Below are positions 9,385 through 35,177 of a DNA stretch of 64,000 bases, one piece after another. A program made the position numbers and the translations under genes. Positions within the stretch are counted from its first letter, which is position 1; the number at the start of each line of letters is the position of its first letter. The stretch is taken from assembly GCA_028281285.1 (NCBI GenBank), contig JANQKF010000015.1, forward strand, positions 248,001-312,000. The letters run 5' to 3'. The stretch comes from Cyclobacteriaceae bacterium. Its GTDB lineage: Bacteria; Bacteroidota; Bacteroidia; Cytophagales; Cyclobacteriaceae. The notes beneath the pieces were generated by a model. The model ran no database searches, was not told where the DNA came from, and worked only from the letters and a program-made list of their open reading frames with translations.

Positions 9385-10875
9385 ATGAGTGTTACCTTAG
9401 TTATTAGTGTCATTGCCGGCTACTTCTTACTATTGATTCTAATTGCCAGATTAACATCAAAAGGTGCGGACAGCACTACTTTTTTTACGGCAAACAGGCA
9501 GTCTCCATGGTATTTGGTTGCATTTGGTATGATTGGGGCCTCTTTATCAGGGGTGACGTTCATCTCTGTTCCCGGTGAAGTAGGTAATAGCTTCTTTGGC
9601 TATTTTCAAGTAGTCCTCGGTTATCTCCTTGGCTACTTAGTCATCGCTACAGTCTTATTACCTCTCTACTACAAGCTACAGTTGGTTTCAATCTACGGCT
9701 ATCTTGAAAAACGATTCGGTTTTGTTTCTTATAAAACAGGGGCATTCTATTTTCTTCTGAGTAGGACTGTGCAAGCCTCTTTCAGGCTATTCCTCGTTGC
9801 GGGGGTACTTCAAATCTTCTTATTCGATAGACTTGGTATTCCATTTTGGGTTTCTGTGCTAGTCACCATAACACTAATCTGGGTCTATACTTTCAAAGGA
9901 GGAATAAAGACGATTGTATGGACTGACACCTTGCAAACCTTCTTTATGCTAACGGCCGCGATTGTGACATTAATCATGATCATGCAGGCTTTTGACATTG
10001 GCATAAAAGAAACCTATGATAGCATCAGATTAAATCGTGTCTCTCAAATTTTCTTCTGGGAATGGGATAGTCCAAATAACTTCTTCAAGCAGTTTTTTTC
10101 AGGGGCATTTATTGCAATCGTAATGACCGGACTTGATCAGGACATGATGCAAAAGAACCTAACCTGCAGAAGCCTCAAAGATTCTCAGAAGAACGTTTTC
10201 TGGTTCAGTATCTCCTTGATCTTCGCCAATATATTGTTCCTTGTTCTCGGAATAATGCTTTATTTCTACGCAGGTAGAATTGGACTTACTATTCCTGAAA
10301 AGACGGATATGCTGTACCCGATAATTGCCAGAGATAATCTGGGGGTAATGGGTGGAGTAGTTTTCTTATTGGGAATTATAGCTGCTGCCTATTCCAGTGC
10401 GGACTCGGCATTGACAGCATTGACTACCTCATTTTGTGTTGACTTTCTTGGCTTTGAAAAGAGAAAAGAATCGGAAAAGAAACCACTAAGAATCAGGGTT
10501 CATATTGCATTCTCTCTTCTTCTCTTTTTGATAATATTGATTTTCAATGTCATCAATGATGATAGTGTAATCAATTCGATATTCAGGGCAGCGGGGTATA
10601 CCTATGGCCCTTTACTCGGCCTATTTGCCTTTGGTATGTTGACTAAACTTAAAGTGAAGGATAAGTATGTCCTTTGGGTCTGTCTTGCAGCACCTATAGT
10701 GGCGTTTATCATAGATAGTAATTCCGCTCAATGGTTCAATGGATTTAAATTTGGTTTTTCGATTCTGATCTTTAACGGCCTATTAACCTTTCTGGGGTTA
10801 TTGCTGATTTCATCAAGATCTCTTGGACTCTTTGATCAAAAGACCCTTGAGCCAACGATCGATTCCGAGGAATAG
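9385..10875 (+). CDS. Sodium:solute symporter (SSS family)
   Basis: A 496-residue inner-membrane transporter with about 13 hydrophobic segments. Family features include ADSTTFFTANRQSPWYLVAFGMIGASLSG near the N-terminus, the FKGGIKTIVWTD stretch around residue 170, and AAAYSSADSALTALTTSFCVDF near residue 335, where Na+-site serines are expected. It should couple Na+ entry to uptake of a small solute such as a sugar, amino acid or organic acid; the substrate cannot be assigned. Its last 63 bases overlap the 3' end of the opposing presumed anti-sigma gene. Confidence 0.9.
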   Translation: MSVTLVISVIAGYFLLLILIARLTSKGADSTTFFTANRQSPWYLVAFGMIGASLSGVTFISVPGEVGNSFFGYFQVVLGYLLGYLVIATVLLPLYYKLQLVSIYGYLEKRFGFVSYKTGAFYFLLSRTVQASFRLFLVAGVLQIFLFDRLGIPFWVSVLVTITLIWVYTFKGGIKTIVWTDTLQTFFMLTAAIVTLIMIMQAFDIGIKETYDSIRLNRVSQIFFWEWDSPNNFFKQFFSGAFIAIVMTGLDQDMMQKNLTCRSLKDSQKNVFWFSISLIFANILFLVLGIMLYFYAGRIGLTIPEKTDMLYPIIARDNLGVMGGVVFLLGIIAAAYSSADSALTALTTSFCVDFLGFEKRKESEKKPLRIRVHIAFSLLLFLIILIFNVINDDSVINSIFRAAGYTYGPLLGLFAFGMLTKLKVKDKYVLWVCLAAPIVAFIIDSNSAQWFNGFKFGFSILIFNGLLTFLGLLLISSRSLGLFDQKTLEPTIDSEE

Positions 10876-11157
10876 AATCAGCCCACCACAAGAAACCAGT
10901 CCGATGGTAAGAATATTTGTTAACCCTTGAAAAGGGGCAAAGTCAACGGAGATTTCCTGTCCTGATAGTAAGAACATAATAAGTCCGGTCACAAACACAG
11001 ATGCAAAAATCAATGTCTTAGGCACCCAAGCTATTGGATTGCGCTCTTCCTTGATTATATCCGTTTCAAGTTTGACTCGTTCGACAACACCTTTCGAAAA
11101 ACGCATTGAGGGAGAATGTCTCTCTAAATTTTTCAACTCATCGTCTATTTCATTCAT
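10813..11157 (-). CDS. Presumed anti-sigma membrane protein of ECF module A
   Basis: About 114 residues from the ATG at 11157; an alternative start at 11181, inside the sigma gene, gives 122. A charged N-terminal cytoplasmic part (ELKNLERHSPSMRFSKGVVERVKLE) is followed by two hydrophobic segments. No HxxxCxxC zinc anti-sigma motif is present. It aligns by eye with the protein at 34797 (shared EPSM/SPSM..F...V, then a P-x-W/K-LIF entry to TM1). By position directly after the ECF sigma gene I infer anti-sigma function; this is not proven. Its 3' end overlaps the symporter gene by 63 bases on the opposite strand. Confidence 0.6.
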   Translation of the reverse strand: MNEIDDELKNLERHSPSMRFSKGVVERVKLETDIIKEERNPIAWVPKTLIFASVFVTGLIMFLLSGQEISVDFAPFQGLTNILTIGLVSCGGLILFLGIDRWLKGLLIKESKRS

Positions 11158-11158
11158 G

Positions 11159-11725
11159 TCAGTATAAGTTTTTCGTTTCATTTCCGAACCTTTTGATAAG
11201 TCGACTCTTCAACAATTCCCTGGTTCGCATTAATTTTATTTTGACATTGCTTTTGGACAACCCGGTGATTTCTGCCACTTCCCTCACTGAGTACCCTTCA
11301 ATGTAAAAAAGAGAAATTATTGCATTCTCAATTTTTGGTAGCTCACTCAACAGACGTTCAATGGCCTCATCGCGATTCAACCCTTCGAGGGTTTCGGCTG
11401 GAGTCTGAAAAAATTCATCCTCTATATGTTCCGCCAGCTCAAGCGAAGAAGTCTCAATGCTATTCTTTCTGACCTCATCAATGGCGCTCCTATAGGCAAT
11501 CCTCATTAGCCAACCCCCAAATTTGTCAGTGTCCTCAAGTTTTGGAAGCTTCTTTAAGGCTTTTAAAAATACATCCTGCGCCACCTCCTCCGTTAATTCA
11601 CGCTTTCTCAAAATTCGAAAACATAAGTTAAATACCTGGTTTTCGTATTTCTGAACCAAACCGAATACTGCAGCCTCTGATCCGGAATTTAAAATTCTCT
11701 CGATATATTGTCGATCAGTCTGCAT
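11159..11725 (-). CDS. ECF RNA polymerase sigma factor (module A)
   Basis: A 188-residue sigma-70 family ECF factor. Region 2 lies at about 20-90 (YENQVFNLCFRILRKRELTEEVAQDVFLKALKK, then FGGWLMRIAYRSAIDEVRK). Region 4 lies at about 125-180 (IISLFYIEGYSVREVAEITGLSKSNVKIKLMRTRELLK, the -35 recognition helix). It resembles the sigma factor at 34210, especially in region 4 (LFY, EITG, SNVK). A TGTAACC-N17-GTC element lies just upstream, suggesting autoregulation. The stop codon abuts the start of the presumed anti-sigma gene. Confidence 0.92.
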   Translation of the reverse strand: MQTDRQYIERILNSGSEAAVFGLVQKYENQVFNLCFRILRKRELTEEVAQDVFLKALKKLPKLEDTDKFGGWLMRIAYRSAIDEVRKNSIETSSLELAEHIEDEFFQTPAETLEGLNRDEAIERLLSELPKIENAIISLFYIEGYSVREVAEITGLSKSNVKIKLMRTRELLKSRLIKRFGNETKNLY

Positions 11726-11739
11726 CTGTTAATTGAACT

Positions 11740-11766
11740 GACGGGTTCAAAAATTTTCCGGTTACA
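11740..11766 (-). promoter_or_regulatory. Putative ECF promoter for sigma gene, module A
   Basis: On the minus strand: TGTAACC (11766-11760), 17 bases, then GTC (11742-11740, in the context CCCGTCA). CGTC is a common ECF -10 core. The sigma ATG follows about 15 bases later, giving a short leader. The same arrangement occurs at three other sites in the window. Confidence 0.6.
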
Positions 11767-11796
11767 ATAGCAAGTTGAAAATTTTTGTAACCGGAA
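11756..11796. repeat. 12-bp inverted repeat containing both ECF -35 elements
   Basis: TTCCGGTTACAA (11756-11767) and TTGTAACCGGAA (11785-11796) are perfect inverted copies separated by 17 bases. Each arm contains the TGTAACC element, one pointing toward each divergent gene. Confidence 0.85.
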
Positions 11797-11813
11797 TCGC
11801 GAGCCCTCCCGTC
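11786..11813 (+). promoter_or_regulatory. Putative ECF promoter for DUF6249-like gene, module A
   Basis: TGTAACC (11786-11792), 18 bases, then GTC (11811-11813, again in CCCGTCA), 30 bases ahead of the ATG at 11844. It is the mirror of the sigma-gene promoter. Its position shows that an upstream in-frame ATG at 11775 cannot be the start. Confidence 0.55.
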
Positions 11814-11843
11814 ATTAGAAATGTAGCACAAAAAAACGCGAAT

Positions 11844-12188
11844 ATGGATTTGATAGGAATTGCTCTAATGGTTTTCTCGATGGTGTTGCTCGTGGTTTCC
11901 ATCTATTACATTATGACTACCACGCGCCACAAAGAGAAAATGGCGATGATTGAAAAGGGGCTGGAACCTTCCCTGATCAAAGACGAGCGGTTCTTTCTGG
12001 ATGCCATGAAATTCGGACTAGCGGCTATTGGAGCAGGGCTTGGTTTCTTTGCCGGAATGATATTGGAAACGTCCAAAATCTTCCATTCAGATATTGAACT
12101 TCCCTTGTACTATGCGCCCATATTTATTTTCATCGGCATCGGTCTGATCATCTTTTATAAAGTGTTTGGAAAGCGTTACAGGAGCTAA
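11844..12188 (+). CDS. DUF6249-like two-TM membrane protein (module A)
   Basis: 114 residues from 11844 (MDLIGIALMVFSMVLL). The N-terminal TM is followed by a conserved juxtamembrane stretch TTTRHKEKMAMIEKGLEPSLI, then further hydrophobic segments (FGLAAIGAGLGFFAGMI and APIFIFIGIGLIIFYKVF). The RHKE-M-IE-G motif and the terminal IGIG helix recur in the protein at 33737, so the two are paralogs. The upstream start at 11775 is rejected because it precedes the ECF-type promoter. Function unknown; it probably belongs to the ECF regulon of the divergent sigma factor. Confidence 0.75.
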   Translation: MDLIGIALMVFSMVLLVVSIYYIMTTTRHKEKMAMIEKGLEPSLIKDERFFLDAMKFGLAAIGAGLGFFAGMILETSKIFHSDIELPLYYAPIFIFIGIGLIIFYKVFGKRYRS

Positions 12189-33736: not shown

Positions 33737-34090
33737 CTAATCTTGTTTTTCCAATTCCTTCTTGTGGAGTATATAGGCTCCGATAAAACCAATACCCACG
33801 AAGAAGAAAATACTAATGAAATAAGGGGCCTCATCGTGCCGTCTAAAAGAATCCATCGATTCGTTTATCCAATATCCCACTCCTATTCCAAGAGCAATAC
33901 TGATGAAGAGTATCCCCAATAGCATTGCAAAGAAATAAGGCTTTTTACGTGTCCCCGTCTGAAATAGCTTGGCATCCGCCCCATTTTCGATCAAAGACAT
34001 TCTTTCTTTATGTCTTGATTGAAGATAATAGTAGATTATTCCGAATACACTGGCAAATAGTGCTATAAATACAAAAACCGCTTCGTCCAT
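33737..34090 (-). CDS. DUF6249-like two-TM membrane protein (module B)
   Basis: 117 residues, paralogous to the protein at 11844. The order is TM1 (VFVFIALFASVFGIIYYYL), juxtamembrane SRHKERMSLIENGADAKLF, then hydrophobic segments (FFAMLLGILFISIALGIGVGYW and FISIFFFVGIGFIGAYIL). The RHKE/R-M-IE-G motif and the final IGIG helix match the module A protein. It is divergent from the module B sigma factor, as in module A. A TGTAACC-type element lies 35-60 bases upstream on the minus strand. Function unknown. Confidence 0.75.
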   Translation of the reverse strand: MDEAVFVFIALFASVFGIIYYYLQSRHKERMSLIENGADAKLFQTGTRKKPYFFAMLLGILFISIALGIGVGYWINESMDSFRRHDEAPYFISIFFFVGIGFIGAYILHKKELEKQD

Positions 34091-34122
34091 TTTAATTCAA
34101 TTGTTTGTGTTGTACCCGTTTT

Positions 34123-34149
34123 GACCTCCTGATGAGAAAATAGGTTACA
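34123..34149 (-). promoter_or_regulatory. Putative ECF promoter for DUF6249-like gene, module B
   Basis: On the minus strand: TGTAACC (34149-34143), 17 bases, GTC (34125-34123). The ATG is 33 bases downstream at 34090, comparable to the 30-base spacing in module A. Confidence 0.5.
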
Positions 34150-34178
34150 CATGAAATTCCTAAATTTAATCTGTAACC
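34143..34178. repeat. Inverted pair of TGTAACC elements, module B
   Basis: GGTTACA (34143-34149) and TGTAACC (34172-34178) are inverted copies; the match extends one base further outward to A..T. They are 22 bases apart. This is the counterpart of the 12-bp inverted repeat at 11756-11796, but with shorter arms. Confidence 0.75.
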
Positions 34179-34198
34179 TGAAATCATACTATATAGTC
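34172..34198 (+). promoter_or_regulatory. Putative ECF promoter for sigma gene, module B
   Basis: TGTAACC (34172-34178), 17 bases, GTC (34196-34198), then the sigma ATG at 34210. The short leader matches the module A sigma promoter. Confidence 0.55.
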
Positions 34199-34209
34199 CA
34201 AGAGAGAAA

Positions 34210-34800
34210 ATGAAGGCTCAGAATGAGGATTATGCCATGGATTTGATTATCGCCAAAGTAAAAGAGGGCGATCTATCCGCATTTAATGTTCTCATTGAAG
34301 AATACAAATCAATGGCCTTCACACTTGCATTCAAATTGATGAAATCGAGGGAGGACGCTGAGGAGGTTGCTCAAGATGCATTTTTAAAAGCTTATAAGAA
34401 CATCAAAAAGTTCGAAGGTAAGTCAAAGTTCTCCACTTGGCTTTATACCATCGTTTATAATACTGCCCTCACTCGGCTTAGAAAAAAACAGCTCCCTATT
34501 GACAACACCGATTTTGGCATCCAGGAAAACCTGATGCATTATAGTGAATCTGGCAATGAGTGGAGAAAACTTCAGCGTGATGAAAGGAGTTCATACATAC
34601 AAAGTGCTCTAGGCCAATTGAGAGATGAGGACAACATCGTAATCACATTGTTTTATCTCAATGAGAACAGTCTACAGGAAATCTGTGAAATCACAGGTTG
34701 GGAATTATCTAACGTAAAAGTTAGATTGCATAGAGCTCGAAAAAGGCTTTTGAAAGAATTGGAACATTTGTTAGATCATGAGGTAAGGTCGTTGCTATGA
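34210..34800 (+). CDS. ECF RNA polymerase sigma factor (module B)
   Basis: A 196-residue ECF sigma factor. Region 2: YKSMAFTLAFKLMKSREDAEEVAQDAFLKAYKNIKKFEG and FSTWLYTIVYNTALTRLRKK. Region 4: VITLFYLNENSLQEICEITGWELSNVKVRLHRARKRLLKEL. Region 4 resembles that of the factor at 11159, in line with the shared TGTAACC promoter element. The 3' end overlaps the presumed anti-sigma start by 4 bases, so translation is likely coupled. Confidence 0.93.
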   Translation: MKAQNEDYAMDLIIAKVKEGDLSAFNVLIEEYKSMAFTLAFKLMKSREDAEEVAQDAFLKAYKNIKKFEGKSKFSTWLYTIVYNTALTRLRKKQLPIDNTDFGIQENLMHYSESGNEWRKLQRDERSSYIQSALGQLRDEDNIVITLFYLNENSLQEICEITGWELSNVKVRLHRARKRLLKELEHLLDHEVRSLL

Positions 34801-35177
34801 AAGGATTTGATTTATCAGACAAAGAATTAAAGTCGCTTCTCCAAAATGATGGAATGGAAGAGCCTTCTATGGGCTTTAATCAAAACGTTTTAAGTAAAAT
34901 TGAGGCTTATGAGAAAAAGAAGGCTCAGCCTATACGCGCTCCAAAATGGTTAATATTCTCATTGCTCTTACTTTTCATTACACCAGCAATTTACATTTTG
35001 GCGAAAAACGGCTTTTCCCTTCTAAACGGGTTGGAGACTACTCAATTTCTATCTTTTGACTTCAATTTGGGGATTAGTTCCACTTTTGTCTGGATCTCGG
35101 TTCTTGCGGTAGGAATGATCTGGACTGCCGTTTTTTTCGATCGTTTTTTACTCAAAAGGTCGGTTAACCATCGTTAA
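34797..35177 (+). CDS. Presumed anti-sigma membrane protein of ECF module B
   Basis: 126 residues. A charged N-terminus (DKELKSLLQNDGMEEPSMGFNQNVLSKIEAYEKKK) precedes two TM helices (WLIFSLLLLFITPAIYIL and FVWISVLAVGMIWTAVFF). There is no zinc-binding HxxxCxxC. The layout and the EPSM-x-F...V motif match the protein at 10813, so I treat them as paralogs. It overlaps the sigma gene by ATGA. The anti-sigma role is inferred from position and the soluble-then-membrane layout. Confidence 0.6.
   Translation: MKGFDLSDKELKSLLQNDGMEEPSMGFNQNVLSKIEAYEKKKAQPIRAPKWLIFSLLLLFITPAIYILAKNGFSLLNGLETTQFLSFDFNLGISSTFVWISVLAVGMIWTAVFFDRFLLKRSVNHR

Follow-up and report, generated by a model that had tools for sequence, protein, structure and literature searches.

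In class I anti-sigma factors, helix 4 of the domain binds region 2 of the sigma factor and helix 1 binds region 4 (PMC7406223). According to the same survey, which set aside domains shorter than 50 residues, class I anti-sigma factors neighbour only 6% of the extracytoplasmic function (ECF) sigma factors of Bacteroidetes, compared with 32% over all phyla (PMC7406223). Here we describe two gene modules, A and B, in a 64,000-nucleotide stretch of a Cyclobacteriaceae bacterium (contig JANQKF010000015.1, positions 248,001 to 312,000; hereafter the window). Each encodes an ECF sigma factor, a small membrane protein that looks like a shortened zinc anti-sigma factor, and a protein of the DUF6249 family (domain of unknown function). 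This set seems to be undescribed as a unit. The initial annotation of the window knew of no description, and none was found in literature on DUF6249, on the ECF sigma factors of Bacteroidetes, Porphyromonas and Flavobacterium, or on TGTAAC, although coverage was not exhaustive.

Several described systems offer points of comparison. In Bacillus subtilis, SigM is controlled by the membrane anti-sigma factor YhdL and a second membrane protein, YhdK, which is needed for full inhibition, and its release is thought to be allosteric rather than proteolytic (PMC11081497, PMC6827917). The modules share with this system an ECF sigma factor, a membrane anti-sigma factor, a second membrane protein and apparent autoregulation. 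The genes of SigM, YhdL and YhdK lie in one operon, whereas here the third gene is mostly divergent and has a mirrored promoter-like site of its own. DUF6249 is a candidate counterpart of YhdK by role, not by sequence comparison. Likeness to SigW/RsiW, also from B. subtilis, is seen in zinc-type relatives of the window anti-sigma factors and in a fused structural model, both described below. RsiW is a protein with a single membrane helix that regulated proteolysis eliminates (PMC5358783), whereas the window copies have two membrane helices joined by a short loop and lack the zinc motif as well as the domain's first half. CnrY, the class II partner of CnrH in Cupriavidus, has a similarly short two-helix cytoplasmic segment, the last helix of which binds sigma region 2 like class I helix 4 (PMC7406223). 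The half-length form described here is tied to the zinc class I group by graded relatives, however, and its likeness to CnrY would be one of reduction, not membership. Within Bacteroidota, an ECF/anti-sigma pair linked to envelope stress is described from Bacteroides, with an anti-sigma factor that spans both membranes (PMC9308784; named Dma1 in PMC12596196). That protein is much larger and has a predicted outer-membrane barrel end, in contrast to window anti-sigma factors of 122 and 126 residues. Finally, the ECF sigma factor SigW-1 (BT1817) of B. thetaiotaomicron is associated with a transmembrane protein, BT1816 (PMC12596196); compared by description and as a lead only, this pair may belong to the present set.

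A conserved three-gene set in Bacteroidota

Module A (10813-12188) and module B (33737-35177) each consist of a sigma gene, an overlapping downstream gene for a small membrane protein (overlap of 23 nt in module A), and a divergent DUF6249 gene (Table 1). The initial annotation had recognized the same three families in the same layout at both loci, and this holds. The reading frames lie where it placed them, Pfam and BLASTP agree (34% identity between the sigma factors, E 5e-32; 33% between the DUF6249 proteins, E 8e-12), and the anti-sigma pair is linked through its wider family. Of the motifs it listed, EITG/SNVK, PSMxF, LIF and RHKE..M..IE.G are present in both copies, while IGIG is exact in copy A only, copy B having LGIG and VGIG. 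Judged by these comparisons, modules A and B are distant paralogues. A third module (module C, L077) lies on another contig of the same genome (G000:C1 near 397.7 kb), giving the host three, and its DUF6249 protein scores slightly below the Pfam cut-off (32.1 bits versus 33).

Both window sigma factors are made up of regions 2 and 4 alone (Sigma70_r2 and r4), at 188 and 196 residues, and by sequence each has its own ECF-type promoter with an AAC-containing -35 and a GTC-type -10, as expected of ECF (group IV) sigma factors. SigW is the top NCBIfam model for both, under its cut-off; a group number for this sigma factor may exist in the 2021 ECF reclassification. The divergent proteins both score above the curated cut-off of PF19762 and are members of DUF6249.

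DUF6249 matches were sampled from 118 genomes of the same family (77 with a match), from 296 genomes of the phylum (87 with a match), and from the best 80 of 520 relatives in named genomes. The DNA around these matches was fetched, apart from the 20 weakest rows of the same-family sample and four among the weakest of the phylum sample, and searched with profiles that started from the window genes and grew by iteration; five duplicate open reading frames (ORFs) were removed. Across these Bacteroidota loci, an ECF sigma gene lies within the fetched stretch for 240 of 254 distinct DUF6249 ORFs, and a small membrane protein gene directly adjoins the sigma gene in 228 of those 240, overlapping it in 174. 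The DUF6249 gene is divergent in 218 cases, stands ahead of the sigma gene on one strand in 21, and follows sigma and anti-sigma in one. Two loci (L083 and L184) hold two adjacent DUF6249 genes near one sigma/anti-sigma pair. When the host genome was searched with the anti-sigma profile, the three strong places were the three DUF6249 modules. The nearest named relatives of the modules are in Roseivirga metagenome-assembled genomes, among the best 80 of 520 in one scan of named genomes, from which very near records may be absent. Neither outcome that the initial annotation had named as fatal was found: counterparts fall in the same families by Pfam, BLASTP and profiles, and the sigma neighbour of DUF6249 is kept.

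The three genes almost certainly form a conserved functional unit. Vertical inheritance by itself keeps some neighbours, and the genes could in principle stand together by common descent alone, with no common function. This is highly improbable, as gene orientation and order vary while the contact persists, the promoter motif sits at the front gene in same-strand loci (below), and paralogous modules within one genome retain the full set.

Table 1. Features of modules A and B, in window coordinates
Feature	Coordinates	Strand	Details
Module A half-length zinc-less membrane anti-sigma factor (probable)	10813..11181	-	122 aa; ~50 residues, then two-helix membrane hairpin
Module A ECF sigma factor	11159..11725	-	188 aa; Pfam Sigma70_r2 E 2e-15, Sigma70_r4_2 E 9e-14
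Module A ECF-type promoter-like site ahead of sigma/anti-sigma	11740..11766	-	TGTAACC-N16-CGTC; sigma ATG 14 nt on
Module A mirrored ECF-type promoter-like site ahead of DUF6249	11786..11813	+	TGTAACC-N17-CGTC
Module A DUF6249 protein	11844..12188	+	114 aa, three membrane helices; PF19762 E 3.2e-16, 59.6 bits (cut-off 33)
Module B DUF6249 protein	33737..34090	-	117 aa; PF19762 E 1.1e-14, 54.7 bits (cut-off 33)
Module B ECF-type promoter-like site ahead of DUF6249	34123..34149	-	TGTAACC-N16-GGTC
Module B ECF-type promoter-like site ahead of sigma/anti-sigma	34172..34198	+	TGTAACC-N16-AGTC; sigma ATG 11 nt on
Module B ECF sigma factor	34210..34800	+	196 aa; Pfam Sigma70_r2 E 5e-20, Sigma70_r4_2 E 6e-12
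Module B half-length zinc-less membrane anti-sigma factor (probable)	34797..35177	+	126 aa; start overlaps sigma stop

The small membrane protein, a probable anti-sigma factor

The small membrane proteins of the window have no Pfam match better than E 0.07, no NCBIfam family at E up to 1, and no FecR domain in either copy at E up to 1. Both lack the HxxxCxxC motif of zinc-type class I anti-sigma factors. With about 50 residues before the first membrane helix they also fall short of the general four-helix class I domain, the second half of which alone aligns to RsiW and the zinc group. The initial annotation had called them zinc-less presumed anti-sigma factors, which is correct for both, and zinc-bearing relatives encoded at the corresponding position now support the presumption. 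HxxxCxxC is found in 21 of the 228 partners (20 distinct), all long forms by sequence. Simple hydropathy places two membrane helices in 214 of 228, although it misplaces the first helix of one (L132). Lengths of the segment preceding the first helix fall mainly into two ranges, about 45-60 and about 80-92 residues, and a minority are intermediate. With set limits, 226 partners divide into 120 half-length, 70 long zinc-less, 21 zinc and 15 intermediate forms.

Kinship with class I anti-sigma factors is carried by the zinc-type relatives. Five of ten scanned exceed the zf-HC2 cut-off, and among 79 partners of all kinds scanned at E up to 0.1, zf-HC2 is the most-matched Pfam family (8) and RseA_N the third (4). 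Compared with solved structures, a profile of 17 zinc-type relatives matches RsiW (E 2.7e-8), DdvA (1e-5), RsrA (0.03) and ChrR (0.04). A half-length profile of 22 members, headed by both window proteins, aligns to the zinc-type profile with an hhalign probability of 96.8 (E 2.7e-10), its columns 7-72 lying on zinc-type columns 42-106, which is the second half of the zinc group. The part of helix 4 carrying PSxxFxxxVM is retained in the half-length form, and the PSMRF version in module A also occurs in L048 and L053, both zinc-type relatives. Since RsiW can bind SigW whether or not zinc is present (PMC5358783), loss of zinc need not abolish inhibition.

Taken with its gene position, this makes it very probable that the sigma factor and the small membrane protein are a sigma/anti-sigma pair. 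Alternatively, the small membrane protein could be an activator or scaffold of the sigma factor, as its anti-sigma domain is halved and zinc-less and the window copies have no family match. We consider this improbable, since the protein occupies the same position as zinc-type relatives that match RsiW, DdvA, RsrA and ChrR, and zf-HC2 and RseA_N rank first and third among the partners scanned.

A single-chain fold was also predicted for the sigma and anti-sigma of the module B relative L042. A first fused alignment was dropped as its anti-sigma-only rows had been split onto the sigma half, and a later version was used. The fused model has a mean pLDDT of 81.6 and a pTM of 0.69, with residues 241-260 around the PSSQF stretch averaging 96, and two helices are predicted in the anti-sigma. 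By TM-score normalized to the target, the sigma part is closest to RsiW-bound SigW (0.85-0.87), followed by CnrY-bound CnrH (0.81) and NepR-bound RpoE (0.76-0.77), against 0.33-0.47 for the listed ECF sigma factors bound in holoenzyme.

The partner types are mixed within the sigma tree. The module A sigma falls in a clade of six (starred in the tree), of which L048, L053 and L084 have zinc-type partners and module A, L052 and L067 have half-length ones. A first tree of 120 of 226 sigma factors was by chance without L052 and L067; a second, of 126 rows, added these and other near rows and enlarged the clade from four to six. Both trees are quick ones with weak deep forks. At least 11 changes (120-row tree) or 13 (126-row tree) among the zinc, long zinc-less and half-length states are required, with gain and loss not separable. 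The natural reading is a path from zinc to zinc-less to half-length, its direction being our inference.

Mirrored promoter-like sites and a possible permease regulon

The account of the module in the initial annotation missed a pair of mirrored ECF-type promoter-like sites, TGTAACC-N16/17-NGTC. In the gap of module A, CCGGTTACAA and TTGTAACCGG face outward, and each forms the -35 of an ECF-type promoter whose CGTC follows after 16-17 nt. The gap of module B is arranged likewise, with AGTC and GGTC, and that of module C has GCAACC versions, read by eye. In the window, TGTAACCN{15,17}GTC has four matches compared with 0.13 expected, a number reached in 0 of 100 shuffles; three are module promoters and one (27558) is not. 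The remaining module promoter, with a spacer one base longer, was found with TGTAACN{16,18}CGTC, which has two matches in the window, both in module A (reached in 3 of 100 shuffles). In five listed module cases the sigma -10 ends 9-14 nt before the start codon (in the window, 11725-11740 and 34198-34210), and the sigma mRNAs may be almost leaderless; the distances to DUF6249 are longer. The start at 11775 (TTG) given earlier for the DUF6249 protein of module A lies upstream of its promoter-like site and is replaced, from the sequence, by the ATG at 11844.

The motif was surveyed in 201 divergent loci with an anti-sigma gene and a gap of at most 500 nt, handled as three groups of 65-70 with counts summed. 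TG[TC]AAC-N16-18-GTC is found ahead of sigma in 138, ahead of DUF6249 in 139, on both sides in 120 and on either in 157. Shuffle means are at most 0.3 per group, and with wrong spacings 0-3 per group match. The most over-represented hexamer ahead of sigma is TGTAAC (140 of 201 versus 13 expected); ahead of DUF6249 it is second to GTAACC (154 of 201 versus 10.4 expected). Where same-strand loci carry the motif, it precedes the front gene: it is ahead of DUF6249 in 5 of 19 and ahead of sigma in 0 of 19. From the mirrored counts and this front position, both arms are most likely driven by the module's own sigma factor.

Sites of this kind elsewhere in the genome point to a possible regulon. The pattern TGTAACCN{16,17}GTC was searched in 12 module-bearing genomes and in 8 genomes without a DUF6249 match. 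The sites examined were 44 of 46 in four module-bearing genomes and 50 of 70 in the other eight (94 of 116 in total), where 20 extra stretches had been hand-picked blind to gene content and not at random, and 50 of 57 in the controls. Sites counted as intergenic if no stop-to-stop frame longer than 150 codons covered them on either strand, a definition that drops some real promoters (e.g., a module sigma promoter, L281). In the module-bearing genomes, 15 of 22 distinct non-module intergenic sites precede MacB_PCD permease genes, either immediately or with a PadR or DUF3471 gene in between, and the permease matches MacB_PCD in all 15 operons. In the controls, 9 of the sites examined are intergenic and none stands ahead of a permease or PadR gene. 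The contrast gives a Fisher p of 0.0008 by site and 0.005 by genome (8 of 12 versus 0 of 8). Module-bearing genomes hold more permease genes (at least 92 per genome in four), and allowing for their number gives p 0.015 to 0.07. With a wrong spacing of N11-12 in four genomes, 2 of 29 sites examined (36 listed) are intergenic and none precedes a permease; with N21-22 the host genome has 6 sites versus 14 with the right spacing. A backward-read control pattern exceeds the motif in every genome searched except G018, where the two differ by no more than one or two. There is therefore no enrichment in the raw number of sites per genome, and the enrichment is in the intergenic position and the genes behind it alone.

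The permease link is thus suggestive. We lean slightly towards the permease operons being a regulon of the module sigma factor. The host genome (G000) has at least 92 MacB_PCD permease places, from 295 first-look candidates. In the same genome a different ECF sigma factor without DUF6249 (L276, G000:C31 near 50.2 kb) faces a PadR/MacB-permease operon across a gap with GGTTACA...TGTAACC in inverted order, a mirrored layout with a different partner. In a module-bearing genome, a gene for a head-GIN (DUF2807) protein (L376:1610-2329, plus strand) lies behind a TGTAACC-N17-GTC site.

The DUF6249 protein and a proposed envelope-stress switch

The initial annotation described DUF6249 as a two-helix membrane protein. 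This is rejected, as simple hydropathy gives three membrane helices in 235 of 254 members, and the AlphaFold2 model of the module B protein (mean pLDDT 87.6) has helices at 3-35, 51-78 and 88-116 and a short one at 40-45. The loop after the first helix is conserved, reading RHKEKMAMIEKG in module A and close to [RN]xxERxAMIEKG in the family. Some members (L097, L098, L131 and L164) have what looks by eye like a signal-peptide start, together with additional sequence ahead of helix 1, which would place the N-terminus outside and the loop inside. L097 and L098 are long DUF6249-type proteins, with a longer N-terminal segment, and are encoded first in the order DUF6249-sigma-anti-sigma. Foldseek found no structural relative of the model (best E 2.1), and a comparison with PDB sequences found none (best E 0.077).

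At the level of sequence we regard the conserved unit, the identity of the sigma factor, the kinship of its neighbour with zinc anti-sigma factors and the mirrored promoter-like sites as established. With somewhat less assurance, we propose that each module is an envelope-stress switch under its own control, in which a reduced anti-sigma factor has DUF6249 as its membrane partner. The anti-sigma factor would be anchored in the inner membrane by its two-helix hairpin, and its short N-terminal segment, a presumed remnant of helices 3 and 4 of the zinc anti-sigma domain, would hold the sigma factor in the cytoplasm in an inactive state. DUF6249, with three membrane helices, an N-terminus on the outside and the conserved charged loop RxKERxAMIEKG just inside, would tune or signal to the anti-sigma protein. 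An envelope disturbance would free the sigma factor to drive both arms of its own locus through the mirror-image TGTAACC-N16/17-NGTC promoters, so that switch and partner would be rebuilt together, and, less surely, to drive MacB/FtsX-type ABC permease operons elsewhere.

The place of DUF6249 in this scheme is proposed by analogy with YhdK, the second membrane protein required for full inhibition of SigM. Our judgement is evenly poised on whether it is a regulatory partner instead of a mere target. Alternatively, DUF6249 may be the first target of the sigma factor and no part of the switch, a membrane protein that repairs or protects the envelope and is kept adjacent as the main output. This reading is somewhat doubtful, although close behind that of a partner. 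It accords with the promoter-like site that the DUF6249 gene has of its own, with the divergent target-like PadR-permease operon beside the other host ECF sigma factor (L276), and with the paired DUF6249 genes of L083 and L184, as for a dose-dependent effector. So strict a gene neighbourhood is more usual for regulators than for effectors, however, and DUF6249 stands upstream of sigma on the same strand in 21 of 254 cases. The lack of a Foldseek relative is neutral between the two.

Several observations weigh against a switch with DUF6249 as membrane partner. For 14 of the 254 DUF6249 ORFs the fetched stretch contains no sigma gene; several of them lie at the ends of contigs, but L183 and L079 have kilobases to spare. 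The host genome also holds a weak fourth DUF6249-like match with neither partner (L078, G000:C31 near 42.5 kb) and a weak anti-sigma relative adjoining an ECF sigma gene without DUF6249 (L342, G000:C28 near 42.5 kb). DUF6249 is thus not strictly obligatory. The motif is on neither side in 44 of the 201 divergent loci and is absent ahead of DUF6249 in 14 of the 19 same-strand loci. Helix 1, the region 4 contact in class I (PMC7406223), and the zinc motif are both absent from the half-length form. Directly, the two window anti-sigma factors have only a 29-column stretch in common (BLASTP, E 0.004), too weak for a claim of kinship, and profiles of the wider family were used instead. The half-length profile alone matches RsiW 43-78 weakly (E 0.17), in register with the hhalign result. 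The L042 model is consistent with docking but is not proof, having no lone-sigma control and coordinates that were not inspected, and its sigma part scores 0.47-0.54 with the sigma chains of the RseA, MucA, RskA and RsbN complexes, no better than with some holoenzyme forms. Another ECF sigma factor with the same promoter taste could own the permease link. Binding, release, the role of DUF6249 and the sigma factor that reads the permease promoters are inferred.

This anti-sigma family fills part of the class I gap in Bacteroidetes, and its members form a gradation, with the full zinc domain at one end and the half domain at the other, all encoded at a single conserved position. DUF6249 gains a testable place in envelope stress signalling, and the mirrored promoter-like sites make reporter tests simple. 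Tentatively, and against our own leaning, the findings may be joined into a phylum-wide three-component ECF system that escaped notice because its anti-sigma domain has been pruned stepwise and repeatedly from a zinc class I domain to a two-helix remnant acting as CnrY does, with DUF6249 having taken over sensing. If true, such pruning would explain part of the low class I neighbour figure of Bacteroidetes, and part of their large set of MacB/FtsX permeases would be under the control of this system.

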